NCBI GenBank assembly: GCA_021787665.1
Contig: JAJYLN010000019.1
Span: 1-44,821, forward strand
DNA: 44,821 bases
Source: a bacterium
Lineage (GTDB): Bacteria > JAMCPX01
Direction of reading: 5' to 3'
The notes beneath the pieces were generated by a model. The model was not told the origin of the DNA. It saw only the letters and a list, made by a program, of their open reading frames with translations, and searched no databases. A program made the translations under genes and the position numbers. Below, one piece after another: positions 14,895 through 26,321 of the stretch. Numbering within the stretch: the stretch's first letter is position 1; the number at the start of each line of letters is the position of its first letter.

Positions 14895-14973
14895 CCTATT
14901 CCCTCCGCGGTTTTACCATGCCTGCCATAAGGCAATAGTTACGGATGTATTGTTCACGCAAGCCGAAATTTAC

Positions 14974-15663
14974 ATGGTTGGAAATGCATGTAAATATGTG
15001 ATGGTTTTTTTATTCGTCATGACCTTTACATCATGTCCCGGCCCCCAATATTCCTGTAATCCCTCTTTTCAGTGGAAAGTAGCTAGTAACCATCTAAGTT
15101 ATAGCTTCCCTCCCTGGTGGACGGACAAGACGGGCGTGTATCTTATAGATTACCATAGACTATACCATACTACCGACGGTGCCACATGGACCTATTCTGT
15201 GCTTCCAGTAAAAAATACCTGTACGAGTATCGGGAGTTTCCCATGGAATGTTTTTGGATGGGGGGAAAGCCCGGATGATAATTATATCGGTTATAAGAAC
15301 TCGATCATGCACTTCGACGGGATAACATGGACAACTTCACTCACCTTACCATCGGATGAGGTAATCTACGCAGGTATAGCAGGTAACAATTCATTGGATA
15401 TATATGCAATGGCAGCAACGATTAGTAGTGCTACCTCCACCTTCACACCTTCTATGACTTCAGGTGCAACATTTCTGACGGGATTGGTATTATACCATGT
15501 TACTGGTTCTTCGTGGACACCTGTTACGACGCTTAACGTAGGACACGTGTCACTCATAAACGTATTTGGCCCAAATGTTTATATCGCTGTAAATTCAGGG
15601 GCGGGGGCATTATTATATCGCTATGATGGGGTCAGGTGGAGCAGTGAATCCGAAAACAAATGA
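14974..15663 (+). CDS. Predicted lipoprotein with beta-propeller-like repeats
   Basis: A predicted lipoprotein with signal MVGNACKYVMVFLFVMTFTSC and mature sequence beginning CPGPQYSC. The rest is rich in aromatic and Thr residues with recurring 'DGxTWT' motifs (DGATWTYS, DGITWTTS, GSSWTPV, DGVRWSS), as in sialidase or Kelch-type propeller proteins. At about 230 residues it is short for a full propeller. Start choice is uncertain: ATG at 14974 keeps a basic residue before the hydrophobic core, while 14950 (TTG) and 15001 (ATG) are alternatives and none has a good ribosome binding site. GC content is lower than that of the flanking PBP gene. Function unknown. Confidence 0.7.
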   Translation: MVGNACKYVMVFLFVMTFTSCPGPQYSCNPSFQWKVASNHLSYSFPPWWTDKTGVYLIDYHRLYHTTDGATWTYSVLPVKNTCTSIGSFPWNVFGWGESPDDNYIGYKNSIMHFDGITWTTSLTLPSDEVIYAGIAGNNSLDIYAMAATISSATSTFTPSMTSGATFLTGLVLYHVTGSSWTPVTTLNVGHVSLINVFGPNVYIAVNSGAGALLYRYDGVRWSSESENK

Positions 15664-15713
15664 GTCGGAGCGCAGGTTCACTATAGATGTAGTTATACTG
15701 TGGAGAAAGGTGA

Positions 15714-16109
15714 ATGAACAGTCCTAAAATAGAGTTAGTATTCCTATTGTTTAGCTTACTCTTATTTGAAGGCTGTCCACCTCCCAAAGAGGTATCCCTG
15801 TCACCTCTCCTCTGGAGTATCTGGCTCGACTCGGCGTCGAACCAGCTTTACGTGGGGAATGGTGGTAGTATATATGTATTTAATGACGCAAGCACGGCAA
15901 ACGGGAATGTATCACCCGCCCGTGTTATTTCCTCCCCTCTCATTGCAGCGGGAGCTCCTCCTCTTAGCTTATGGCTCGATTCTGTATCAGATCAACTCTC
16001 TATAGCTTGTAACTCAGTTGCCTATAAAGGGAAGCCCTCCATTCTCGTATTTGACCATGCAAGCACAATCGAGGGCGATGTTCCACCGTCGAGAATAATA
16101 TATCCATGA
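15714..16109 (+). CDS. Short lipoprotein with two propeller repeats, probably truncated
   Basis: A 131-residue lipoprotein (signal ending LLLFEGC) with two repeats of an NHL/lactonase-like propeller unit: LWLDSASNQLYVGN..IYVFNDASTANGNVSPARVIS and a second copy containing ILVFDHASTIEGDVPPSRII. Complete proteins with this unit normally carry more blades, so this one looks C-terminally truncated. GGAGAAAGG precedes the ATG, so it may still be expressed. Its stop overlaps the next lipoprotein start by four bases (ATGA), perhaps the result of a deletion joining two genes. Confidence 0.65.
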   Translation: MNSPKIELVFLLFSLLLFEGCPPPKEVSLSPLLWSIWLDSASNQLYVGNGGSIYVFNDASTANGNVSPARVISSPLIAAGAPPLSLWLDSVSDQLSIACNSVAYKGKPSILVFDHASTIEGDVPPSRIIYP

Positions 16110-16389
16110 GGCTGTATTGCAAAACATATAAGCATAGCAACGGTATGATTCTGTTATTGAGCTTGTTAGGAGTAACCGGCTGTTCATCCAATCACTCGAC
16201 CAACAGTTCACAAGTCATAAGGACCTTCGGTGTTGGCAGCATGCCCCTGAATATTGTCGCTGATTCTTCCGGCAATGTCTGGGTAATCAATATCGTCGAT
16301 AACACGGTCACGGAGTTCGTCGGATTGGCCAGGGGCCCCAATATTTCCCCTATCGAGGACCGCAATGGCGAGGGTGCGGAAACTGGTGA
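16106..16389 (+). pseudogene. Frameshifted small NHL-type lipoprotein
   Basis: The frame starts MRLYCKTYKHSNGMILLLSLLGVTGCSSN, a lipoprotein signal, and continues with one NHL-like unit (IVADSSGNVWVINIVDNTVTEF). After LARGP at 16339 the frame leaves the family sequence. Shifting the frame there by -1 restores GPQYFPYRGPQW and GNW followed by TGA at 16387-16389. The same C-terminal motif, GPQYFPYTGPQ, occurs intact at 40.86 kb. One C missing from the run at 16336-16339 explains the shift. As read, the frame instead continues to 16468 with unrelated residues. It is either a true pseudogene or a consensus error. Confidence 0.7.
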
Positions 16390-16523
16390 GCGTCGCCGTA
16401 TCTTGATAAGTATGAGTGCAAGAATGATGATCTACAAGGTAAAATCCAAACGATTAAACAAGGCATGAAATAGCATAGCCAAAATATTTTTTATACGATA
16501 CGTTATTTCTCAAGGAAAAAGCT

Positions 16524-16598
16524 ATGAGACAGGATCTTTTACACCGATGTCATCCGTGGGGCGTAGTATACGTGGTAAAGATAAATCTGAGGAGGTAG
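16524..16598 (+). CDS. Possible 24-codon leader peptide upstream of a lipoprotein gene
   Basis: A short frame (MRQDLLHRCHPWGVVYVVKI plus NLRR) with AAGGA about 7 bases upstream. Its last codons AGG AGG TAG contain the Shine-Dalgarno sequence of the next gene, whose ATG is at 16603. Such an arrangement would couple translation of the two, but the peptide matches nothing I know and could be chance. Confidence 0.25.
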   Translation: MRQDLLHRCHPWGVVYVVKINLRR

Positions 16599-16602
16599 TG
16601 CT

Positions 16603-17874
16603 ATGAAGAGATATACTTTTAGGATCTACGCTATACTTGTAATGACCACGCTGGTTATCACCGGCTGTCCGTCCAGTCCGCCTCATTCAACTGCGAGCGG
16701 CAGTATCGTCCTTCAGGGGTTCCAGAAGGCCGGAGATATAGTCGGCAACCTTGTCATGACGTCAGGAGACAGGCTTTACCTCGGATGGTCCGGGTTCGAC
16801 AGCGGGAATTTTATTACAGGCACAAGCGCTTATGTTTATGTTACAGCATGGGACGGAAAGACGCTGGATCCGCTCGGCAATGTTGTCGGGACAATTCCGA
16901 GGTATAGTGCAGCGCCTGTAGGAAACGTCCCTTTGATAAGTATCGGCATGTTCCACAATGAGCCTGTAATAGCCATGGCCGGCGTCTCCGGCGATGTTAT
17001 GGTCAAGGGATGGAACAAGAACACGTGGGGCGTCATCGGCGATCTTAAGCTTGCCGATATCAGCGATATCGTTACCGCTCTCGACATCACGACGACAGTG
17101 AACAGGCTTTATCTCGCCTATGGAGAAGAGCTCACGGTAGGTTCCACCATAATCAAGGTGGCAAGTTATGACGGCTCTGCATGGCAATCGCTACCAGCCC
17201 CGGAGATTGTTCCCGGCGGCAGCTTCCTTATGTCTCTGGATATGGCAGTAATGAACGGTAACCCGGTGATTGTGTGGATGGAGGGGAACGATAGTACCGG
17301 CAAGCTTACCATCCCGGTCAGTGAGTGGATCGGCACGCAATGGACCAGTCTAACAGACAACATGAAGGTATATAATTCCCCCTGGCTTATGGCGATGGGA
17401 GCGCCTTCATGCAGTATAACGGATACCCCGGATGGAATTGCCGTGATGCGGAACGAGGGCAAGCCTGTCACAGACCCTTCGATGGGACTTTTGTACCTGC
17501 CAACCGGCATGGTATCTACCTACGACGGCACGCAGTGGACACAGCTCGATGATGACGTAAACTGCGACTATCCCGGCATTGCGACCGACGATAGAGACGC
17601 GGAGCAACTTCGGGGACTCTGGATAAACAATAGGCTTTACGTGACATTCACCGAAATGGCTCAGGTATTCCTTGCCTATTATAACGGCACGGGGTTCAGT
17701 TACAGAGGGAATACGCTCAACGCGCACCCATGGTTTTCGGGCGGCTATTGGGCCTATGATCCGTATCTTGTTTCATGGAATGGTGCTATGTACCTGAGCT
17801 TTGTTGAATATGCTATGGACCAGAATACCGGTGCCGTGTCTTCGAATCCTGTGGTCAGGCAAATAGCGCCCTGA
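16603..17874 (+). CDS. Predicted lipoprotein, beta-propeller-like, unknown function
   Basis: A 423-residue lipoprotein with signal MKRYTFRIYAILVMTTLVIT and the lipidated cysteine at 22 (GCPSSPP). The mature part repeats a motif of the kind 'YDGSAWQSL', 'WIGTQWTSL', 'YDGTQWTQL', 'WNKNTWGVI' interleaved with 'NRLYLAY' and 'NNRLYVTF' strands, as in propeller-type surface proteins. GAGGAGGT lies about 7 bases before the ATG. It is the only intact-looking long member of the 15-18 kb lipoprotein cluster. An outer-membrane or surface location is inferred; no catalytic motif is visible. Confidence 0.8.
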   Translation: MKRYTFRIYAILVMTTLVITGCPSSPPHSTASGSIVLQGFQKAGDIVGNLVMTSGDRLYLGWSGFDSGNFITGTSAYVYVTAWDGKTLDPLGNVVGTIPRYSAAPVGNVPLISIGMFHNEPVIAMAGVSGDVMVKGWNKNTWGVIGDLKLADISDIVTALDITTTVNRLYLAYGEELTVGSTIIKVASYDGSAWQSLPAPEIVPGGSFLMSLDMAVMNGNPVIVWMEGNDSTGKLTIPVSEWIGTQWTSLTDNMKVYNSPWLMAMGAPSCSITDTPDGIAVMRNEGKPVTDPSMGLLYLPTGMVSTYDGTQWTQLDDDVNCDYPGIATDDRDAEQLRGLWINNRLYVTFTEMAQVFLAYYNGTGFSYRGNTLNAHPWFSGGYWAYDPYLVSWNGAMYLSFVEYAMDQNTGAVSSNPVVRQIAP

Positions 17875-17984
17875 GTTCGTAAGGAAACAACGAGGGTTTC
17901 CCTTGACAGGGTACCTCTGCAATACCCCCTTTGATTGCATTTTTATCTGCGGGATGTCTATACCGATACCCGGGAGGCTTAATC

Positions 17985-18758
17985 ATGGGCAGGGCGACAG
18001 ACAGATTCAGACTTGACGGCAGGGTCGCGCTGGTAACGGGCGCGAGCAGGGGCATCGGCGAAGCGATCGCGCGGGCGTTTGCGGACGCCGGGGCAAAGGT
18101 CGTTCTGTCGAGCAGAAAGCAGGAAGACCTCGAGCGGGTCGCGGCCGGGATAAAGGCCTCCGGCGGCGACGCGTACGCGTGCGCAGCGCATGCAGGAAAG
18201 GCCGAGGACCTCAGGGCGCTTGTGGCGAAGGCAGTGGAGCAGTACGGCCGCATAGACGTCCTCGTGAACAACGCGGGTACGAACCCGGTGTTCGGTCCCA
18301 TCATCAGCGTGGACGAGCGGGCGTGGGACAAGATCTTCGAGGTAAACCTCCGTGGCTTTTTCTTCCTGAGCAAGGAGGTCGCCCAGGTTATGTCGGACAA
18401 GGGAGGGGGCACGATCATCAACATGGCCTCCGTCGCAGGGATCAAGCCAGGCGTCGGTCTCGGCGCTTATAGCATAAGCAAGGCAGGCGTCATCATGCTG
18501 ACCAGGGTGCTTGCACAGGAATGGACCGGCCTGAATATCAGGGTGAACGCCCTTGCGCCGGGTGTCATAAAGACCAAGTTCGCCGAGGCGCTCTACAGCA
18601 GCCCGGAGCTCGAAGAGGAGATTCTGCGCGGCATATCGATAAAGCGGCTCGGTGAACCCGACGATATTGTGGGCGCAGCGTTGTTTCTCGCGTCCGATGC
18701 ATCGGCCTACGTGACCGGCCAGACCCTGGTCGTAGACGGCGGCGGGGTAATGCATTGA
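17985..18758 (+). CDS. SDR-family NAD(P)-dependent oxidoreductase, FabG-like
   Basis: A classical short-chain dehydrogenase of 257 residues. The start at 17985 is supported by CGGGAGG about 8 bases upstream. It shows TGASRGIG at 18-25, NNAG at 95-98, and the catalytic S149, Y162 and K166 (AYSISKAG). The C-terminus has the usual GEPDDIVGAALFLASDASAYVTGQTLVVDGG. The substrate is not determinable. Next to a CoA-ligase/acyl-CoA dehydrogenase cluster, a 3-hydroxyacyl-CoA or similar alcohol dehydrogenase role is plausible, but a 3-oxoacyl-ACP reductase role cannot be excluded. It is convergent with the ligase gene. Confidence 0.9.
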   Translation: MGRATDRFRLDGRVALVTGASRGIGEAIARAFADAGAKVVLSSRKQEDLERVAAGIKASGGDAYACAAHAGKAEDLRALVAKAVEQYGRIDVLVNNAGTNPVFGPIISVDERAWDKIFEVNLRGFFFLSKEVAQVMSDKGGGTIINMASVAGIKPGVGLGAYSISKAGVIMLTRVLAQEWTGLNIRVNALAPGVIKTKFAEALYSSPELEEEILRGISIKRLGEPDDIVGAALFLASDASAYVTGQTLVVDGGGVMH

Positions 18759-18774: not shown

Positions 18775-20319
18775 CTAATGCTCCTGTCTTTTGTCAATCA
18801 CGTATTCCGCCTTGATGCCCGTTTTGGCGAATAGCTCGGTCTCGATTGACTTCTCGTCCTTCTCGAAGATGATCTCGTCCGGCGTAAGCTCTATGAACGC
18901 CTTTATCCGGTGACCGAGCGACTCACGAAGCGCTTCTTCGTTGACGGCTTTGTCCGCTACGATTCTGATCTTGATGACGTCCATCGAGAACGGATCATCC
19001 GGGACCTTTTTGTCTATGATGATCTGGAAGCTCAACACGCCCTTCGTGTCCCTGACCGCGGTGACGAGGTCCGGAATCAGCACCTTCGTGCCTTTGATCT
19101 TCGTGAAGTCCTTGTCGTACCGTACGACCGGTGCGTACAGCCTGGGCATCGTAAACCCGCACCGCGGACATCGGTCGAAGGACAGCCCTCCCTTGATGAG
19201 GTCGCCGGTCCAATACCGGACGAACACCGTGCCCCTCCATCCGATGTGGCTGAACACGAGGATGCCGGGGTCCCCCTGTTTGACCGGCTTCCTGGTCTCC
19301 GGATCCAGCAGTTCCCAGAAGTAGAACCGGGGGTCGAGGTGGATACCGCAGTCGTAGTCCGGCTCTATGAACGCCCACTTGAGCTCCGTGGAACCGTAGG
19401 AGGCGATGACCCTGAATTTGGGGTGTGCGCCGATCTTCTTGGTGAGCGAAAGCAGATACGCCTTCAGCTCCGGCGTTACGCCCTCTGCACCGAGCAAGGC
19501 ACCCTCGAAGAACGGCATGTCGCCTATCTCCCCCTTCTCATGCATCTCGACGGCCTTCCTTAGCCAGTACACGAAGTACGAAGGCACGGACGTTATGGCG
19601 TTGAACTTTCCGGAAGCGAAGATCCTAATTTGCTGGTCTGTGGGGATGACCTTCCCTCCGAAGGAATCGAAGCTCGACGCGCCGACGAACAACTTCGTCA
19701 GAACGGCCTGGAAGAACGCGAGGTGCGGCGCACCCGGAAAGGTGTTGAAATTTATCTTGTTGAACGCGGCACGCGGGGAGTCTTCCGGGACGTCCTTGGG
19801 CTCGATCCATACGATGTTTGCCATCTCCGGCAGCACACGCTTGATGTCCCGATAGGTGTATACGGCCGGTGTGGGGTCCCCGGTAGAGCCGGCGCTTGCA
19901 TGAAAGTGTATCGGGAACCACTCGTGTACGATCCTCCTGGTGACCTTCTCCTTGAAATCCATGTTCTTGAATCCATTGACCTTGTCCCTCGGTATGTTCA
20001 GGCCGGCCTGCACGGCGTATTTCAGGAGCTTCCTTTTGCTGATCATAGCCGTGTCATACGGTATCATGGACTCCTGCGTTGGGAACTTGGGCTGCAGGAT
20101 GAATGCCCTCGGGTCCTTCCGATATTCTTTCTTCGTGATGAGCGGCAGCTTCTGGAAGTCCTCGTAGGTCCGCATCTTTCCCACATCGATGCCGAGCTCC
20201 TTGTATGCCCCTCTGAGGTACGGGTGGTACGGGTAGACGTAGTCCTGTATATACTTGATCAGCCGACTGAGACTTTCCTCTCTCTGTTTGTCCGGAGACA
20301 GCTTAAAATATCGGTTCAT
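18775..20319 (-). CDS. Phenylacetate-CoA ligase / coenzyme F390 synthetase-like AMP-forming ligase
   Basis: A 514-residue adenylate-forming enzyme of the PaaK/F390 synthetase group. It would activate a carboxylic acid to an acyl-adenylate and then the CoA thioester. The P-loop-like ASAGSTGDPTP lies at 141-151, the adenine-binding YGSTE at 308-312, the ribose-binding YWTGD at 369-373, and a Cys pair CPRC at 384-387. It is longer than PaaK (about 430). AAAGGAGG precedes the ATG at 20319. It is divergent from the acyl-CoA dehydrogenase operon and shares a palindromic promoter region with it, so it probably supplies that pathway with its CoA substrate. The natural acid is unknown. Confidence 0.85.
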   Translation of the reverse strand: MNRYFKLSPDKQREESLSRLIKYIQDYVYPYHPYLRGAYKELGIDVGKMRTYEDFQKLPLITKKEYRKDPRAFILQPKFPTQESMIPYDTAMISKRKLLKYAVQAGLNIPRDKVNGFKNMDFKEKVTRRIVHEWFPIHFHASAGSTGDPTPAVYTYRDIKRVLPEMANIVWIEPKDVPEDSPRAAFNKINFNTFPGAPHLAFFQAVLTKLFVGASSFDSFGGKVIPTDQQIRIFASGKFNAITSVPSYFVYWLRKAVEMHEKGEIGDMPFFEGALLGAEGVTPELKAYLLSLTKKIGAHPKFRVIASYGSTELKWAFIEPDYDCGIHLDPRFYFWELLDPETRKPVKQGDPGILVFSHIGWRGTVFVRYWTGDLIKGGLSFDRCPRCGFTMPRLYAPVVRYDKDFTKIKGTKVLIPDLVTAVRDTKGVLSFQIIIDKKVPDDPFSMDVIKIRIVADKAVNEEALRESLGHRIKAFIELTPDEIIFEKDEKSIETELFAKTGIKAEYVIDKRQEH

Positions 20320-20347: not shown

Positions 20348-20390
20348 TTTATATAAAATAGTTGACATTTTTGTCAAGTACATTTAATAT
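20348..20390. promoter_or_regulatory. Overlapping divergent promoters on a shared palindrome
   Basis: The palindrome TTGACATTTTTGTCAA (20362-20377) provides a perfect TTGACA -35 box on each strand. Plus strand: TTGACA, 17 bases, TAATAT (20385-20390). Minus strand: TTGACA, 18 bases, TATAAA (20348-20353). A dimeric repressor bound to the palindrome would block both promoters. The plus-strand start would fall near 20397, about 3 bases from the ATG at 20400, so that mRNA would be almost leaderless. The minus-strand leader is about 20 bases and contains a strong Shine-Dalgarno sequence. Confidence 0.7.
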
Positions 20391-20399
20391 CTCCCCATT

Positions 20400-21623
20400 A
20401 TGATGGAAAATTTATTTGATGAACAGTACAGGGTCGTAGCGGAGAATGCACGCAGGTTTGCTCAAAAGAACATCAGGCCTGTGGCAGCACAATTGGACAG
20501 AGAAGAGCTCAAGCCCTTCGACATAGCCAAAAGGGCCGTACGGGAGCTGTTCGGCGGAGATAGTATCAAGGGTGTCAAGGAGCTCGAAGAGATCGAAAAC
20601 CAGAGGGACATCCTGAACGCAAGCCTGATCACTATCGAGCTCGCAAAGGCGGCGCCTGCCATCGTGATGGCCATCGGCGCGAGCCTCGAGCTGTGCGGAG
20701 CGACGATCCTCTCGAAGGGGACCGAGGAGCAGAAGGTGAAGTACGCCCTGCCGCTCTTCAGGGGCGAGAAGGTCGGCTGCTTCGGGCTTACCGAGCCCGA
20801 GGCAGGCAGCGACGTGATGGGGCTGAAGACAAAGGCGGTGAAGGATGGCGACCACTATCTCCTCAGCGGTACAAAGACCTTTATAACGAATGCGCCGGAC
20901 GCTGATATATTCATCGTGTACGCCCGTTCTAACCCCCAGGCGCAGGGACACAAGGGCATAACCTCCTTCGTGCTCGAGCGGGGCATGCCAGGTCTCGAGA
21001 CGAGCAAGCCCCTGAATAAGATGGGGCTGCGGGGCTCGCCGACCGGCGAGATATACATGGACGAGGTGAAGGTTCCCCTGAAGAACATCGTGGGGACCGA
21101 GCACAAGGCGTTCTATGAGCTCATGTCCACGCTGAGAATAGAGAGGACCACGCTTCCCTCGATGGCCATCGCCATTATGGAGCGCGTGCTGGAGGACTCC
21201 ATAAAGTACGCGAAGCAGCGCGTGCAGTTCGGCCAGAACATCATTTTCTTCGAAGGCATCCAGTTCAAACTGGCGAGGATGCACATCGCGCTTCAGCAAA
21301 GCTACGCCATACTCCTGCTGCTCGCACAGATGTACAAGGCCGGCAAGGACATAACGACACTGGCGAGCGCGGCAAAGGTGTATACCTCGGAGGAGGCCGT
21401 CAGGGTGTGCCTCGACGCGATCCAGATACATGGTGGCTACGGGTATATGAAGGAGTACGAGGTGGAGAGGTTCATGCGTGACGCGAAGCTCCTCGAGATA
21501 GGGGCGGGCACGACAGAGGTCCAGCTCCTGATCATCGCACGGGCGCTCATGACGGAGGGCCAGTTCTATTTCAACCCCATGTTTACGCCTGACGATAAGC
21601 CGGAGGGGTCGAGGATACTATGA
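20400..21623 (+). CDS. Acyl-CoA dehydrogenase, isovaleryl-CoA-dehydrogenase-like active site
   Basis: A 407-residue FAD enzyme forming the 2,3-double bond of an acyl-CoA. The FAD/substrate region CFGLTEPEAGSDVMGLKTKA is typical. The usual C-terminal base motif YEGT is GAGT here (EIGAGTTEVQ), as in isovaleryl-CoA dehydrogenase. A Glu (E248 in LRIERTT) sits where isovaleryl-CoA and long-chain enzymes keep their base, so a branched or long substrate is suggested. The start is ATGATG at 20400 with no ribosome binding site and a -10 box just upstream. Its stop overlaps the thiolase start by four bases. First gene of the plus-strand operon. Confidence 0.93.
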   Translation: MMENLFDEQYRVVAENARRFAQKNIRPVAAQLDREELKPFDIAKRAVRELFGGDSIKGVKELEEIENQRDILNASLITIELAKAAPAIVMAIGASLELCGATILSKGTEEQKVKYALPLFRGEKVGCFGLTEPEAGSDVMGLKTKAVKDGDHYLLSGTKTFITNAPDADIFIVYARSNPQAQGHKGITSFVLERGMPGLETSKPLNKMGLRGSPTGEIYMDEVKVPLKNIVGTEHKAFYELMSTLRIERTTLPSMAIAIMERVLEDSIKYAKQRVQFGQNIIFFEGIQFKLARMHIALQQSYAILLLLAQMYKAGKDITTLASAAKVYTSEEAVRVCLDAIQIHGGYGYMKEYEVERFMRDAKLLEIGAGTTEVQLLIIARALMTEGQFYFNPMFTPDDKPEGSRIL

Positions 21624-22789
21624 AGGTAAACGTCCTCGGGGCAGCGGTCACGCCGGTACAGCCCTCCCTGAAAACGACGGTCAAGGAGATGATCCTCGAC
21701 GTCTTTATCAGGGCAGTGGCGGACGCCGGCATCGAGCCGGGGGACGTCGAGGGGCTCTTCATAACGCCCCAGGGCTTTGCGGGCATGTCGTCAGCGATGC
21801 TTGCATGCAACCTTGCAGACTACCTTGGTCTGAGCCTCAAGAGCCTGTCCATGGAGGAGTGCGGCGGCACCTCGTCCACGGTCGCGTTCCATTACGCTAT
21901 GGATGAGATTCTCACGTGCCGCAACAGCATCAACGTCGTGATCGGGCTCGATGTGAAGTTCGAGCCGTTCGAGGACTTCGAGTTTGGCCTGCCGGAGTCG
22001 ATCTTTACCCAGCATTCTTTGTACGGTATACACTTCGCTCGGTACGGCATCGGGACGCCGGTGCCCTTTTATGCCCTGAGCTCGCAGCGCTACATGCACG
22101 AGTACGGCGTTACCCCGGAGGATGCTGCGGAGCTTGCGGTGCTTCTGAGGGAGAACGCATGTAAAAACCCCAACGCCCAGTTCAGAAAGCCCATTACGAA
22201 GGAGGACGTACTGACATCGAGGATGATCTCTCCGCCGCTACGGCTGCTTGACTGTACGACCTTTTCGACCGGCGCTGCGGCGTGCGTGCTCGCGGCGGAG
22301 AACATCAGGGGAAAAAAGCCCCACGTGGATATCCGGGGTTTCGGCGAGTTCCACCACGCCTCGAACTTCATCCCTCCGCAGGCCTCGATAACGACATTCG
22401 AGAGCGTCAGGAGGGCGTCGGCCGAGGCATACGGTGCCGCGGGCATAAAGCCGGGCGATATCGACGTGGCCGAGGTGTATGACGTGTTCACCTACACAGA
22501 GCTGATGGTATACGAAGACCTGGGATTTTTCGAGAAGGGTACGGCCGCGCGTCATGTCAGGGACGGGGAGACGAGGATAGACGGCAGGTTACCGATTAAT
22601 CCGAGCGGTGGCAGGCTGTCCATGGGACACCCTGCCGGCGCTACGCCCATGCTCGAGTTTGCGGAGGTCCTGTGGCAGCTCCGCGGTGAAGCCGGGGACA
22701 GGCAGGTGAAGGCGCCTGGTCTCGGCCTTGTGCACGCTGAGCACGGCATGCTCAACGGGGGCATCGTAATAATCATGGAGAGGCATTGA
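21620..22789 (+). CDS. SCP-2/lipid-transfer-type thiolase or retro-aldolase
   Basis: A 389-residue thiolase-fold protein of the SCP-x/Ltp branch. C81 (MEECGGTSS) lies at the nucleophile position but lacks the usual C-A-S-G context, and GHPAGATP near residue 336 supplies the His. The second thiolase cysteine (C-x-G near the C-terminus) is absent: the region reads HGMLNGGIVII. YDVFTYTELMVYEDLGFFEKG and RLPINPSGGRLSMGHP are characteristic of the group. The neighbouring DUF35 protein is the usual partner. Such pairs act either as thiolases or, as Ltp2 with a DUF35 partner in steroid side-chain degradation, as retro-aldolases. Which applies here is open. Confidence 0.88.
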   Translation: MKVNVLGAAVTPVQPSLKTTVKEMILDVFIRAVADAGIEPGDVEGLFITPQGFAGMSSAMLACNLADYLGLSLKSLSMEECGGTSSTVAFHYAMDEILTCRNSINVVIGLDVKFEPFEDFEFGLPESIFTQHSLYGIHFARYGIGTPVPFYALSSQRYMHEYGVTPEDAAELAVLLRENACKNPNAQFRKPITKEDVLTSRMISPPLRLLDCTTFSTGAAACVLAAENIRGKKPHVDIRGFGEFHHASNFIPPQASITTFESVRRASAEAYGAAGIKPGDIDVAEVYDVFTYTELMVYEDLGFFEKGTAARHVRDGETRIDGRLPINPSGGRLSMGHPAGATPMLEFAEVLWQLRGEAGDRQVKAPGLGLVHAEHGMLNGGIVIIMERH

Positions 22790-22791
22790 GT

Positions 22792-23220
22792 ATGGAGTTA
22801 CAGGAAGCTATACGGTCATACACCCAAAAGGCCCTGTCCTACTATGGGGACGCGCAGAACGAGGAGTTCTTCAGGCGTCTGAAACAGAAAGAGTTCGTCA
22901 CGCTCCGGTGCACCCGGTGCGGGAAGATTATGTTCCCGCCCAGGCCTGTTTGCCCGGCGTGTCATTCAGACAAGCTCGCGTGGGTGGCCCTGCCACGCAC
23001 CGGAACGCTGTACGCCTTTACCCAACAGCAGAAAGCGTTCAGGTTCTCTGCGCCGGATGTTATCGGACTCGTCGAGCTGGAGGGCGTGGGAAGGATCATG
23101 ACGAAGATAAACGGCAGCTTCGAAGACCTCAGGATAGGCATGGAGGTCGAACTGGAGTTCCTGGTGCTCGATGACGGGGGCGTTGTCCACCAGTTCAGGC
23201 CGACCGGGCGGAATGGATAG
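22792..23220 (+). CDS. Zn-ribbon/OB-fold (DUF35) protein, thiolase partner
   Basis: A 142-residue protein with a rubredoxin-like Zn ribbon (C40, C43, C54, C57 in CTRCG..CPACH) and a C-terminal OB fold (about 65-140). DUF35 proteins bind SCP-2-type thiolases or aldolases and help hold acyl-CoA. I chose the ATG at 22792, two bases after the thiolase stop; a TTG at 22786 would overlap that stop. Its position directly after the thiolase gene supports a complex. In actinobacterial steroid degradation the equivalent DUF35 is fused to a MaoC protein; here it is separate but adjacent to two MaoC genes. Confidence 0.9.
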   Translation: MELQEAIRSYTQKALSYYGDAQNEEFFRRLKQKEFVTLRCTRCGKIMFPPRPVCPACHSDKLAWVALPRTGTLYAFTQQQKAFRFSAPDVIGLVELEGVGRIMTKINGSFEDLRIGMEVELEFLVLDDGGVVHQFRPTGRNG

Positions 23221-23272
23221 ACAGCGGGGAAAGAAAAGACTACGTAGTCAAAAAACAGGAAAGGAGGAAGAT

Positions 23273-23713
23273 ATGGCGGTAGATAAAAAGTTTATTGGCA
23301 GGAAATATCCTCCGGTGGAGTACGAGGTGTGCAAGGAGAAGATAAAGGAGTACGCCACCGCAGTGGGAGACCTTAATCCGCTCTACATAGACGAGCAGAA
23401 GGCGAAACAGAGCGCCTACAAGGGGATTATCGCCCCGCCCCTGTTTGCGGTCGTTTATGCAAAGGACGCCATGGCCGCGCCCATGTTTGATCGGGATCTT
23501 GCGTTGAACCTTGCCATGCTCGTTCATGGAGAACAGGAGTACGAGTTCGTGGACGTGGTCAGGCCCGGAGATACGATCGTTACGGAGGCGTTCATAGCGA
23601 ACATAGAGGAGAAGAGCAACAAAGACTTCGTCACGGTCGGCGCCACATCAAGGAGAAAATCGGACGGTCGCGTCGTGACAAACGGCAAATACACATTCGT
23701 AATCAGAAGATAA
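23273..23713 (+). CDS. MaoC-like (FAS1-type) dehydratase subunit, probably non-catalytic
   Basis: A 146-residue hot-dog-fold protein resembling the N-terminal MaoC dehydratase domain (HadA type). AAAGGAGGAAG precedes the ATG at 23273. The hydratase motif reads GDLNPLYID (33-40): the Asp is kept but the catalytic His is Tyr (Y38). The next gene has the complete motif, so the two probably form a heterodimer with one active site, as in HadAB or ChsH1-ChsH2. The complex would hydrate the enoyl-CoA made by the acyl-CoA dehydrogenase. Confidence 0.87.
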   Translation: MAVDKKFIGRKYPPVEYEVCKEKIKEYATAVGDLNPLYIDEQKAKQSAYKGIIAPPLFAVVYAKDAMAAPMFDRDLALNLAMLVHGEQEYEFVDVVRPGDTIVTEAFIANIEEKSNKDFVTVGATSRRKSDGRVVTNGKYTFVIRR

Positions 23714-23729
23714 TACGGAGGAGATTACC

Positions 23730-24125
23730 ATGGCTTTACAGGTGAAAGTCGGCGACACATTTAAGTTACAGAAAGAAGTCGATAAGTACAGGCCCATTTT
23801 CTATGCGGGGGCCTCGGGTGACTTCAACCCCATACATATAGACGGAGAGTTCGGCAAGATGGTCGGGCTCGGGGGGGCCATACTGCAGGGGTTGTGTACG
23901 ATGGCATTTGTCATGCAGACCGTGTCCGATTGGGCGCAGGACCCGTACAGAATAAAGAGGATCAAGGTCCGGTTTGCAAAGCCCGTATTGCCTGACGACT
24001 CAGTCATCATAACCGGCAATGTGACGAAAGTGGAGAATAACGTCGCATCCTGTACACTCATTGCAAAGAACCAGAAAGACGAAGAGGTTATCAACAACGC
24101 ATTTGCCGAGGTCAAGGTAGGGTAG
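23730..24125 (+). CDS. MaoC-like enoyl-CoA hydratase subunit, catalytic
   Basis: A 131-residue single hot-dog protein with the complete hydratase-2 motif GASGDFNPIHID (catalytic D31 and H36) and the following GGAILQGL segment. It lies 16 bases after the other MaoC gene with its own ribosome binding site (ACGGAGGAG). The length is typical of the catalytic partner in a heterodimeric MaoC hydratase. It probably adds water to a 2-enoyl-CoA to give the 3-hydroxyacyl-CoA, which is the substrate for either a dehydrogenase or a retro-aldolase. Confidence 0.9.
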   Translation: MALQVKVGDTFKLQKEVDKYRPIFYAGASGDFNPIHIDGEFGKMVGLGGAILQGLCTMAFVMQTVSDWAQDPYRIKRIKVRFAKPVLPDDSVIITGNVTKVENNVASCTLIAKNQKDEEVINNAFAEVKVG

Positions 24126-24143
24126 GACCCAGGGGAGGGTAGG

Positions 24144-25739
24144 ATGAGTTTGAAAGGAACAGTAACAAAGTCCGATGGACGATACTTTGTGTCGATAAAC
24201 CCCGCGAACCTGAAGCCCATAGGGGAGGTCAGGATCATGGAGGAAGCGGAGATAAAGCAAAGGGTCGATTTGGCGGAGAAGGCCTTCCCGGCGTGGTCCG
24301 GCCTGTCCCTCGAGCGCCGCTGCGAGTACCTCAACGGCGTGAAGGATCAGCTCATAAAGGACTATGACGATATAGCCGGGATCATATCGCAGGAGATGGG
24401 CAAGCCGCGCATCGAGGCTTCGCTGGCCGAGCTTATGCTCGTCGTCGATCTTATAGACTATTTTGTGAAGAAGGCAGAAAAGATGCTTGCAGACGAGCCC
24501 ATCCCGCTGCACCTCGCCAAGGGCAAATCGAGCAAGCTCAACTACAGGCCGTACGGCGTCATTTCCATCATATCGCCGTGGAACTACCCCTTTGCAATCC
24601 CCATGAGCGAGATCGTGCTTGCACTGCTTGCAGGGAATACCGTTGTGTTCAAGCCGGCATCTGACGTGATGCTCATAGGCAAAAAGATAGAGGAGCTCTT
24701 CCAGGCAGTCGATCTCCCGGTGGGCGTGTTCAACTTTATAGCTGCACCGGGCAGCGCCGTGGCGAAGAGCATGATAGGTCCGAAGATCCGGAAGGTCATC
24801 TTTACGGGCAGCGTGTCCGTGGGCAAGCAGGTTATGGAGGCCGCATCACGGTATCTCATCCCGGTCGTCCTCGAGCTGGGCGGTAAGGACCCCATGATCG
24901 TATGCAAGGACGCAAATATCGAGCTCGCAGCACGGGGAGCCGTATGGGGCGCCTTTACGAACGCGGGGCAGGTATGCGCCTCCATAGAGCGCGTGTACGT
25001 CATGAAGGAGGTTGCGGACGAGTTCATCGAGAAGGTCGTGGCGAAGACGAAAAAGATACGGGTCGGTCAGGATACCGATTTCAACGTCGACATGGGCCCC
25101 ATGGTCAACGAGGGACAGCTCAAGATCATCGAGGAGCATGTGGCGGACGCGCGGCAGAAGGGAGCGAACATACTCACCGGCGGCGAGCGGCTGAAGGAGT
25201 TGAAGGGCTTTTTCTATCCGCCGACCGTACTTACCAACGTCAACCATTCGATGAAATGCGTATCGGAAGAGACCTTCGGTCCGCTCCTGCCCATCATGGC
25301 AGTCAGCAGCGAGGAGGAGGCCATCAGGCTCGCCAACGACACCGTGTATGGCCTCACGGCTTCCGTCTGGACCAAGGACAGGGAACGGGGCGAGGAGATT
25401 GCGAAACAGATTGATGCAGGCTCCGTCGCCATCAACGAGCACGCCTATACCTACGGGCTGCCGGAGACCCCCTGGGGAGGCATCAAGGACAGCGGCATGG
25501 GCAGGACGCACTCGAAGCTCGGCCTGATGGAGATGGTGGTGCCCTACCATATCAATATCGACCACTGGCCCGACTCCATGACGTGGAGGCCGTGGTTCTA
25601 CCCATACTCGAAGGAGAAGTACGAGCTACTCAAGACCCTGACGTCCGTGTTTGGCACCGGCGCCTACGCAAAGATAAAAAACCTTGCAACTTCCACAAAA
25701 ATGCTGTTAAGTTCTAACACCCGAAAAAAAATATTTTAG
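24144..25739 (+). CDS. NAD(P)-dependent aldehyde dehydrogenase
   Basis: A 531-residue ALDH-superfamily enzyme. It shows SPWNYP with N147, FTGSVSVGK of the cofactor site (220-228), the general base E244 in LELGGKDP, and the nucleophile C278 in NAGQVCAS. All catalytic residues are present. The C-terminal extension after about residue 470 is longer than in short ALDHs and ends with a basic stretch. It lies 18 bases after the MaoC gene in the same operon. An aldehyde product of the pathway is therefore likely, which fits a retro-aldol step better than plain thiolysis. Confidence 0.93.
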   Translation: MSLKGTVTKSDGRYFVSINPANLKPIGEVRIMEEAEIKQRVDLAEKAFPAWSGLSLERRCEYLNGVKDQLIKDYDDIAGIISQEMGKPRIEASLAELMLVVDLIDYFVKKAEKMLADEPIPLHLAKGKSSKLNYRPYGVISIISPWNYPFAIPMSEIVLALLAGNTVVFKPASDVMLIGKKIEELFQAVDLPVGVFNFIAAPGSAVAKSMIGPKIRKVIFTGSVSVGKQVMEAASRYLIPVVLELGGKDPMIVCKDANIELAARGAVWGAFTNAGQVCASIERVYVMKEVADEFIEKVVAKTKKIRVGQDTDFNVDMGPMVNEGQLKIIEEHVADARQKGANILTGGERLKELKGFFYPPTVLTNVNHSMKCVSEETFGPLLPIMAVSSEEEAIRLANDTVYGLTASVWTKDRERGEEIAKQIDAGSVAINEHAYTYGLPETPWGGIKDSGMGRTHSKLGLMEMVVPYHINIDHWPDSMTWRPWFYPYSKEKYELLKTLTSVFGTGAYAKIKNLATSTKMLLSSNTRKKIF

Positions 25740-25748
25740 GAGGTTAGC

Positions 25749-26321
25749 ATGCTGATAGCAGCGACTGGGCTCAGGACCGGGATGATCATCGAGTTCAACA
25801 AGGAGCTTTACAGGGTCCTGAGCGTCAATCATGTGACGCCCGGAAACTGGCGTGGCATGGTCCAGACGAAACTGAAGAACATCAAAACCAACTCCAACAT
25901 GGAGAACAGGTTCAGGCCGGAGGACAAGGTCGAGAAGGTTACGTTCGATGAGAAGGAGATGGAGTACCTCTACAAGGAGGATGTCCACTATGTGTTCATG
26001 GACACGGAGACCTACGAGCAGTTCATTATCGGAGAGGACATCGTCGGAGACGAGATCCAGTACATCGTACCGAATGCGAAGATATCCATATCGTTCTACG
26101 AGGGGAAGCCGATAAGTGTCGAGCTGCCGCTCACGGTCGAGCTGGAGGTCGTCGAGACAGAACCGAACCTGAAGACCGCAACGATCACCAATTCGACGAA
26201 GCCCGCGAAGCTGGAGACCGGTCTTGTCGTACAGGTTCCGCAGTTTGTCGACGTCGGAACGCGGATCAAGGTCGATACGTCCGAGGGTAAGTACATCGAG
26301 CGGGTGCAGACAAAAAAGTAA
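25749..26321 (+). CDS. efp: Elongation factor P
   Basis: EF-P relieves ribosome stalling at polyproline stretches. The 190-residue, three-domain form is standard. The loop that reaches the peptidyl-transferase centre reads TPGNWRGMVQTKLKN, in place of the PGKG type with a modifiable Lys at position 34. N33, W34 and R35 occupy the tip, so beta-lysylation as in E. coli is not expected; Arg rhamnosylation would need R35 to sit at the tip. It starts 9 bases after the ALDH stop with AGGAGG upstream, so it may be cotranscribed with the catabolic operon. Confidence 0.95.
   Translation: MLIAATGLRTGMIIEFNKELYRVLSVNHVTPGNWRGMVQTKLKNIKTNSNMENRFRPEDKVEKVTFDEKEMEYLYKEDVHYVFMDTETYEQFIIGEDIVGDEIQYIVPNAKISISFYEGKPISVELPLTVELEVVETEPNLKTATITNSTKPAKLETGLVVQVPQFVDVGTRIKVDTSEGKYIERVQTKK

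Follow-up and report, generated by a model that had tools for sequence, protein, structure and literature searches.

The window, meaning the whole stretch of 44,821 nucleotides analyzed here, is contig JAJYLN010000019.1 of assembly GCA_021787665.1, from a bacterium of the lineage JAMCPX01. Positions 20400-25739 of the + strand hold, in order, genes for an acyl-CoA dehydrogenase (ACAD), a thiolase-like protein, a DUF35 protein, two MaoC proteins (MaoC1 and MaoC2) and an aldehyde dehydrogenase (ALDH), with an acyl-CoA ligase gene divergent from them. The first-pass annotation of the locus read the same order and proposed an aldehyde-releasing, retro-aldol form of β-oxidation; all six genes are present on the one strand, with the following features.

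17979-18758, short-chain dehydrogenase/reductase (SDR), adjoining the ligase gene in the genus of the window
18775-20319, - strand, AMP-dependent acyl-CoA ligase, PaaK/FlxY-like (weak PF00501 match, PaaK/FlxY matches below cut-off)
20362-20390, + strand, likely operator/promoter, with the perfect 16-bp palindrome TTGACAttttTGTCAA at 20362-20377 over the promoter -35
20400-21623, + strand, ACAD (Pfam ACAD domains) with an isovaleryl-CoA-dehydrogenase-type base position
21620-22789, + strand, thiolase-superfamily protein without the nucleophilic Cys, a predicted acyl-CoA retro-aldolase (G82-G83, Y287-D-V289-F290, G336-H337-P338-A339, E374-H375-G376)
22786-23220, + strand, DUF35 protein with a C4 zinc ribbon and an OB fold (PF12172 and PF01796), presumed partner of the thiolase-like protein
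23273-23713, + strand, MaoC1, HadA-like subunit, predicted inert partner with the catalytic His changed to Tyr
23730-24125, + strand, MaoC2, HadB-like, predicted catalytic enoyl-CoA hydratase subunit with Asp/His intact
24144-25739, + strand, NAD(P)-dependent ALDH of the non-acylating superfamily (PF00171, 493.6 bits; E244 and C278)
25749-26321, + strand, efp, elongation factor P (EFP) gene, named by its sequence alone and probably co-transcribed

The ACAD and thiolase-like genes overlap by 4 bp, and the gaps that follow are about 2, 52, 16, 18 and 9 bp, the last one separating the ALDH gene from efp. The DUF35 gene probably starts at the ATG at 22792 and MaoC1 starts at 23273. The sole promoter-like site on the + strand between 20250 and 26500 lies upstream of the ACAD gene and is sigma70-like (TTGACA-17-TAATAT), with its -35 within TTGACAttttTGTCAA, a palindrome with a chance expectation of 0.02 per window.

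The position of the nucleophile in thiolases is occupied in the thiolase-like protein by a glycine (G83). In Sal a Gly also replaces the nucleophilic Cys, hence there is no thiolysis (Rolfe et al. 2025, PMC12329534). In the alignment Y287 is the counterpart of Tyr294 in Ltp2 and of the essential Tyr302 in Sal. Where thiolases read HD[CA]F the window protein reads YDVF, and the His of the GHP motif is retained. Catalysis in Sal uses Tyr302 as the base together with Cys304 of YDCY; in Ltp2 the residues used are Tyr294 of YDHF and Tyr344 (PMC12329534). The acid/oxyanion positions in the window protein are filled by Val289 of Y287-D-V289-F290 and by H337 of GHPA, the latter at the position of Ltp2 Tyr344 and Sal Gln352. 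As judged from the alignment, the protein retains the base and lacks the nucleophile, and its acid/oxyanion residues are unlike those of either Sal or Ltp2. Cys81 is ruled out as a shifted, substitute nucleophile since 7 of the 12 members of the clade described below have Asn there. The AlphaFold2 model of the protein has a thiolase fold (pLDDT 90.5, pTM 0.92) with strong matches to thiolases and aldolases alike; the fold comparison is therefore uninformative as a discriminator and does not decide function.

Relatives were sought in 386 genomes, and nine genomes outside the phylum encode one with 43-52% identity. Together with three orthologs from within the phylum these form a 12-member clade (100% support in the Shimodaira-Hasegawa-like approximate likelihood ratio test, SH-aLRT) carrying the signature Y-x-V-F, G-H-P-A and E-H-G, with members in several phyla. 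Residues E80, G82, G83, Y287, V289, F290, R332, G336-H337-P338-A339, E374, H375, G376 and N379 are invariant in all 12 sequences, the alignment of which spans 43-87% identity to the window protein. In a superfamily tree made by a quick method, with SH-aLRT support and no bootstrap, the clade groups with an assemblage of Sal, Ltp2 and YDSF/YDAF proteins (99% SH-aLRT), apart from all 18 Cys-thiolases. No PDB chain among the matches listed has the clade motif, the nearest being the putative thiolase 4u4e, and no description of the clade was found in the open papers searched, to which this statement is confined. On these alignments the thiolase-like protein would serve as type sequence for a clade that includes neither Sal nor Ltp2.

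The proteins encoded beside it have the following features. The DUF35 zinc ribbon is formed by Cys42, 45, 56 and 59 (C-x2-C-x10-C-x2-C) in a separate protein with no MaoC fusion, for which the best PDB sequence match is the ChsH2 DUF35 of Ltp2 (6ok1_B). MaoC1 reads DLNPLY, with Tyr in place of the catalytic His, and MaoC2 keeps both Asp and His (DFNPIH). The same His-to-Tyr change marks the inert domain of ChsH2 (PMC11321319), and MaoC1 and MaoC2 are a predicted pair of an inert and a catalytic hydratase subunit. In the ACAD, aligned to 1ivh and 5ol2, E248 (in RIERTT) lies on helix G at the position of E254 of isovaleryl-CoA dehydrogenase (IVD) and is found in each of the three operon genomes, and the usual Glu of EGTSE is an Ala (GAGTTE). 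The ALDH has the Glu (E244) and Cys (C278) of the NAD(P)-ALDH active-site signature, and an NCBIfam succinic-semialdehyde-dehydrogenase-like match falls below the cut-off.

Sal-Shy(DUF35) together with the ALDH Sad belongs to the C5 side-chain route for cholate in Comamonas testosteroni (PDB code 9myr). Shared with the window system are a thiolase fold that has Gly in place of the nucleophilic Cys, the Tyr base, a DUF35 partner (presumed in the window) and MaoC proteins for a prior hydration. In the cholate route Sad then oxidizes the aldehyde; an ALDH gene lies in the operon of all three genomes with the window system and is present in two others that have no thiolase. Sal has the Cys of YDCY and Gln352, whereas the window protein has Val289 and His337 and falls in a separate clade; Shy is a MaoC fused to DUF35 with C3H1 zinc, whereas in the window an unfused DUF35 carries C4 zinc and two proteins make up MaoC. 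Ltp2-ChsH1-ChsH2(DUF35), the actinobacterial aldolase for the C3 steroid side chain (PDB code 6ok1), is likewise Cys-less with a Tyr base, a DUF35 partner and a two-part MaoC having an inert His-to-Tyr subunit, as predicted for MaoC1 and MaoC2. The YDHF His and Tyr344 of Ltp2 are absent from the window protein (Val289, His337), its DUF35 is unfused to MaoC, and its clade is its own. The first-pass annotation had modeled the locus on Ltp2, but the thiolase-like protein departs from it in two catalytic residues and in its place on the tree. Because neither the defining catalytic residues nor the tree placement is that of Sal or of Ltp2, the protein is a member of neither type, and the system is predicted to work like Sal-Shy-Sad and Ltp2-ChsH1-ChsH2 yet to belong to neither. 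The closest solved relative by sequence, 4u4e of the YDSF group (Sphaerobacter thermophilus, about 31% identity), is also Cys-less with Tyr at the base position and a His in THP, but reads YDSF where the window clade reads YxVF. Archaeal acetoacetyl-CoA thiolase (6esq) and BbsAB, the benzoylsuccinyl-CoA thiolase (7pxp), have the same fold, a DUF35 partner and the GH motif; both keep the nucleophilic Cys and HD[CA]F, unlike the window protein, and membership with BbsAB is ruled out since BbsB has Cys and HDAF.

The phylum is represented by nine genomes in the collection (G000-G008, G000 being that of the window), and thiolase orthologs at E <= 1e-60 are present in three of them, G000 (100% identity), G008 (87%) and G007 (71%), with GC contents of 0.54, 0.57 and 0.38. 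The palindrome separates ligase and ACAD in all three, which share the order ligase/ACAD-thiolase-DUF35-MaoC1-MaoC2-ALDH-EFP, and the recurrence of this order in two further genomes indicates that it is not due to chance. None of the three loci contains a 3-hydroxyacyl-CoA dehydrogenase (HAD) gene, as the first-pass annotation had remarked for the window; elsewhere in the window's genome are FadA-FadB and a HAD-crotonase-ACAD operon. The ligase ortholog occurs in the same three genomes and no others, and the part that varies as a unit among the nine is ligase-ACAD-thiolase-DUF35. The palindrome-MaoC1-MaoC2 segment with EFP forms a phylum-wide block: EFP follows in five of the six thiolase-less genomes (with another ACAD in G002, G003 and G004), and the G005 contig breaks off in MaoC2 or just past it. 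An ALDH gene accompanies the MaoC pair in 5/9 genomes, its absence being confined to those without the thiolase. In an unrooted tree of MaoC1, MaoC2 and EFP, one branch parts the genomes with and without the thiolase block (82% of bootstraps). The G007 identities for thiolase (71%) and ligase (74%) are like those for ALDH (77%) and SDR (75%), which suggests that the thiolase block was inherited vertically and lost in some genomes, and not recently transferred, as far as these comparisons reach. A role for the MaoC pair as the dehydratase of fatty acid synthesis is less likely and would not be needed, because FabZ-type dehydratases (PF07977) are encoded in all nine genomes.

Linkage was examined across the superfamily with the window proteins as queries, over 8 kb either way of each thiolase-like gene; the loci were fetched by similarity, giving a bias toward close relatives that is the same for all groups. 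An ALDH like that of the window is found at 4/8 clade loci outside the phylum and at 0/65 other thiolase-superfamily loci (0/41 other Tyr-type, 0/20 Cys-thiolase and 0/4 other), with p ~6e-5, or ~6e-4 with the close relatives L143 and L145 counted once. None of the clade loci tested has a HAD or FadB gene in its 8-kb surroundings. The cousin loci L140, L143, L145 and L146 contain, in varying sets, the thiolase-like gene with ACAD pairs, a PcaD-like hydrolase, a luciferase-like monooxygenase, a zinc alcohol dehydrogenase and ALDH, and their substrate is perhaps cyclic.

The ligase, ACAD, thiolase-like and DUF35 proteins with the MaoC pair and ALDH probably constitute an aldehyde-releasing variant of β-oxidation, the gene set and residues being observed and all of the reactions, the stereochemistry and the substrate being predicted from them. 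The retro-aldol assignment is the best reading because the nucleophile is absent, the Tyr base is kept, the protein groups with Sal and Ltp2, ALDH is linked to the clade and the MaoC proteins form an inert/catalytic pair. To this extent the proposal of the first-pass annotation stands, although not as an Ltp2-type system. The ligase would convert a carboxylic acid into its CoA ester, and the ACAD, using a base placed as in IVD, would yield the 2-enoyl-CoA. Hydration by MaoC1/MaoC2 would then give the (3R)-3-hydroxyacyl-CoA. MaoC hydratases give the R isomer, which the L-specific HAD/FadB would not use. In the complex of the thiolase-like protein and DUF35, Tyr287 may deprotonate the 3-hydroxyl so that the C2-C3 bond is broken to release acetyl-CoA and an aldehyde; His337, or possibly Glu374/His375, may be the acid protonating the acetyl-CoA enolate, an assignment that is a guess because Val289 replaces the Sal Cys and the Ltp2 His. 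The ALDH would oxidize the aldehyde to an acid two carbons shorter that is open to reactivation.

Several observations weigh against this assignment. Val289 takes away the Cys acid required in Sal and the His of Ltp2, and the predicted fold fits the Cys-thiolases at least as well as the aldolases. The six phylum genomes without the thiolase have the palindrome directly before MaoC1-MaoC2, and in two of them, G001 and G006, ALDH-EFP follows; the MaoC pair and ALDH therefore have other uses and the hydratases are not dedicated to the thiolase, so that the six genes are not the self-contained unit that the first-pass annotation took them to be. An SDR gene adjoins the thiolase-like gene at 2/9 cousin loci outside the phylum (L139 and L140). 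Finally, an IVD-type base also suits 3-methyl acyl-CoAs, for which retro-aldol cleavage would give a ketone and call for no ALDH.

This last point leads to the main rival that retains the retro-aldol chemistry, namely cleavage of a tertiary 3-hydroxy-3-alkyl-acyl-CoA derived from a 3-methyl-branched acid to release a ketone, as Ltp2 does with its 17-hydroxy steroid, the ALDH then serving another pathway. Besides the IVD-like placement of the ACAD base, the persistence of ALDH with MaoC in the thiolase-less G001 and G006 is in keeping with it, and an aldolase would be required because a HAD cannot oxidize a tertiary alcohol. It is nevertheless unlikely, as the ALDH linkage is specific to the clade among the superfamily loci tested and the ALDH gene stays beside the thiolase gene in all three thiolase genomes.

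Ordinary (R)-specific β-oxidation, in which MaoC hydration is followed by oxidation by a nearby SDR and by thiolysis with thiolase/DUF35 as in the archaeal thiolases or BbsAB, was the alternative offered in the first-pass annotation. The SDR gene beside the ligase (17979-18758), the two cousin loci with an adjoining SDR and a fold that is that of the DUF35-partnered thiolases speak for it. Against this, the nucleophilic Cys is Gly in 12/12 clade members, and HD[CA]F of BbsB and the archaeal enzymes reads Y-x-V-F in the clade. The SDR next to the window ligase occurs in 8/9 phylum genomes irrespective of the operon and is located elsewhere in G007, whereas the ligase tracks the thiolase in 3/3; thiolysis with the neighboring SDR is rejected on these grounds as the main reading and is quite improbable, the SDR showing neither linkage to the thiolase nor a shared distribution. 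Other C-C chemistry on the same scaffold, such as a biosynthetic aldol-type condensation or decarboxylation of a malonyl-CoA-like ester, is very unlikely. In its favor, V289, H337 and E374-H375 match no characterized enzyme compared, and the trypanosome SCP2-thiolase-like protein TbSLP slowly decarboxylates malonyl-CoA as a weak side activity (PMC12329534). Against it, CtSal is without malonyl-CoA decarboxylase activity (PMC12329534) and the ligase, ACAD, hydratase and ALDH set reads as degradation.

With the aldehyde-releasing assignment preferred at this locus, the Y-x-V-F/G-H-P-A/E-H-G clade as a whole may, at a little short of an even chance, be, next to Sal and Ltp2, a third family among the acyl-CoA retro-aldolases of thiolase fold, with a catalytic set of its own (Tyr287 as base and His337, perhaps with Glu374-His375, as acid), not tied to steroids, coupled to ALDH well outside the phylum and serving an aldehyde-releasing β-oxidation variant in little-studied lineages. 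Sal and Ltp2, the two characterized Cys-less, DUF35-partnered retro-aldolases in the papers searched, are both steroid enzymes; the contexts of the clade have so far no sign of steroids, are linked to ALDH and go with different catalytic residues. The sterol substrate suggested in the first-pass annotation is not borne out, nothing having been found that points to one, though no search was made for genes of steroid-ring degradation. If the clade is a true third group, retro-aldol chain shortening would be a wider alternative to thiolysis, its mechanism would be open to testing by a few point mutations, and 'acetyl-CoA acetyltransferase' labels on clade genes would be wrong.

A palindrome of the form TTGACAnnnnTGTCAA is present in 9/9 phylum genomes before MaoC1 or, where the thiolase block is present, between ligase and ACAD (window 20362-20377; L019:8764-8779; L020:6743-6758; L178:6660; L183:6054; L204:6182; L205:6181; L206:6720; L207:7013), and is a predicted conserved operator. 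The reversed control pattern had no matches. Further copies occur in several phylum genomes, one of them immediately ahead of an AMP-ligase-like gene in L177. Wherever the phylum contigs reach that far, efp lies directly 3' of the MaoC/ALDH genes, linking translation to the acyl-CoA hydratase pair.

The window's genome has seven DUF35 loci (C5, C1 and C6; L009-L015, L150-L154) in which most of the paired thiolase-like proteins are also without the nucleophilic Cys. Gly is found with HDAF in L009, L010 and L014, and a tandem divergent pair is present at L012/L013. L011 alone keeps the Cys and adjoins an HMG-CoA-synthase-like protein with a DUF35 tail. The description of the organism as apparently anaerobic has no more than indirect support, from dsrA in 7/9 phylum genomes, but none above the family cut-off is found in the window's genome; G007 also has none, and G008, of the same genus as the window, has dsrA. 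The apparent in-frame TAG in some dsrA matches is the natural stop. Upstream of the operon, at 14950-17874 of the window, short lipoprotein-like genes lie in a row (signal ending GC, 'FEGCPP...LWSIWLDS'), and a close paralog on contig C17 (L155:1952-2959) indicates an apparently expanded family.

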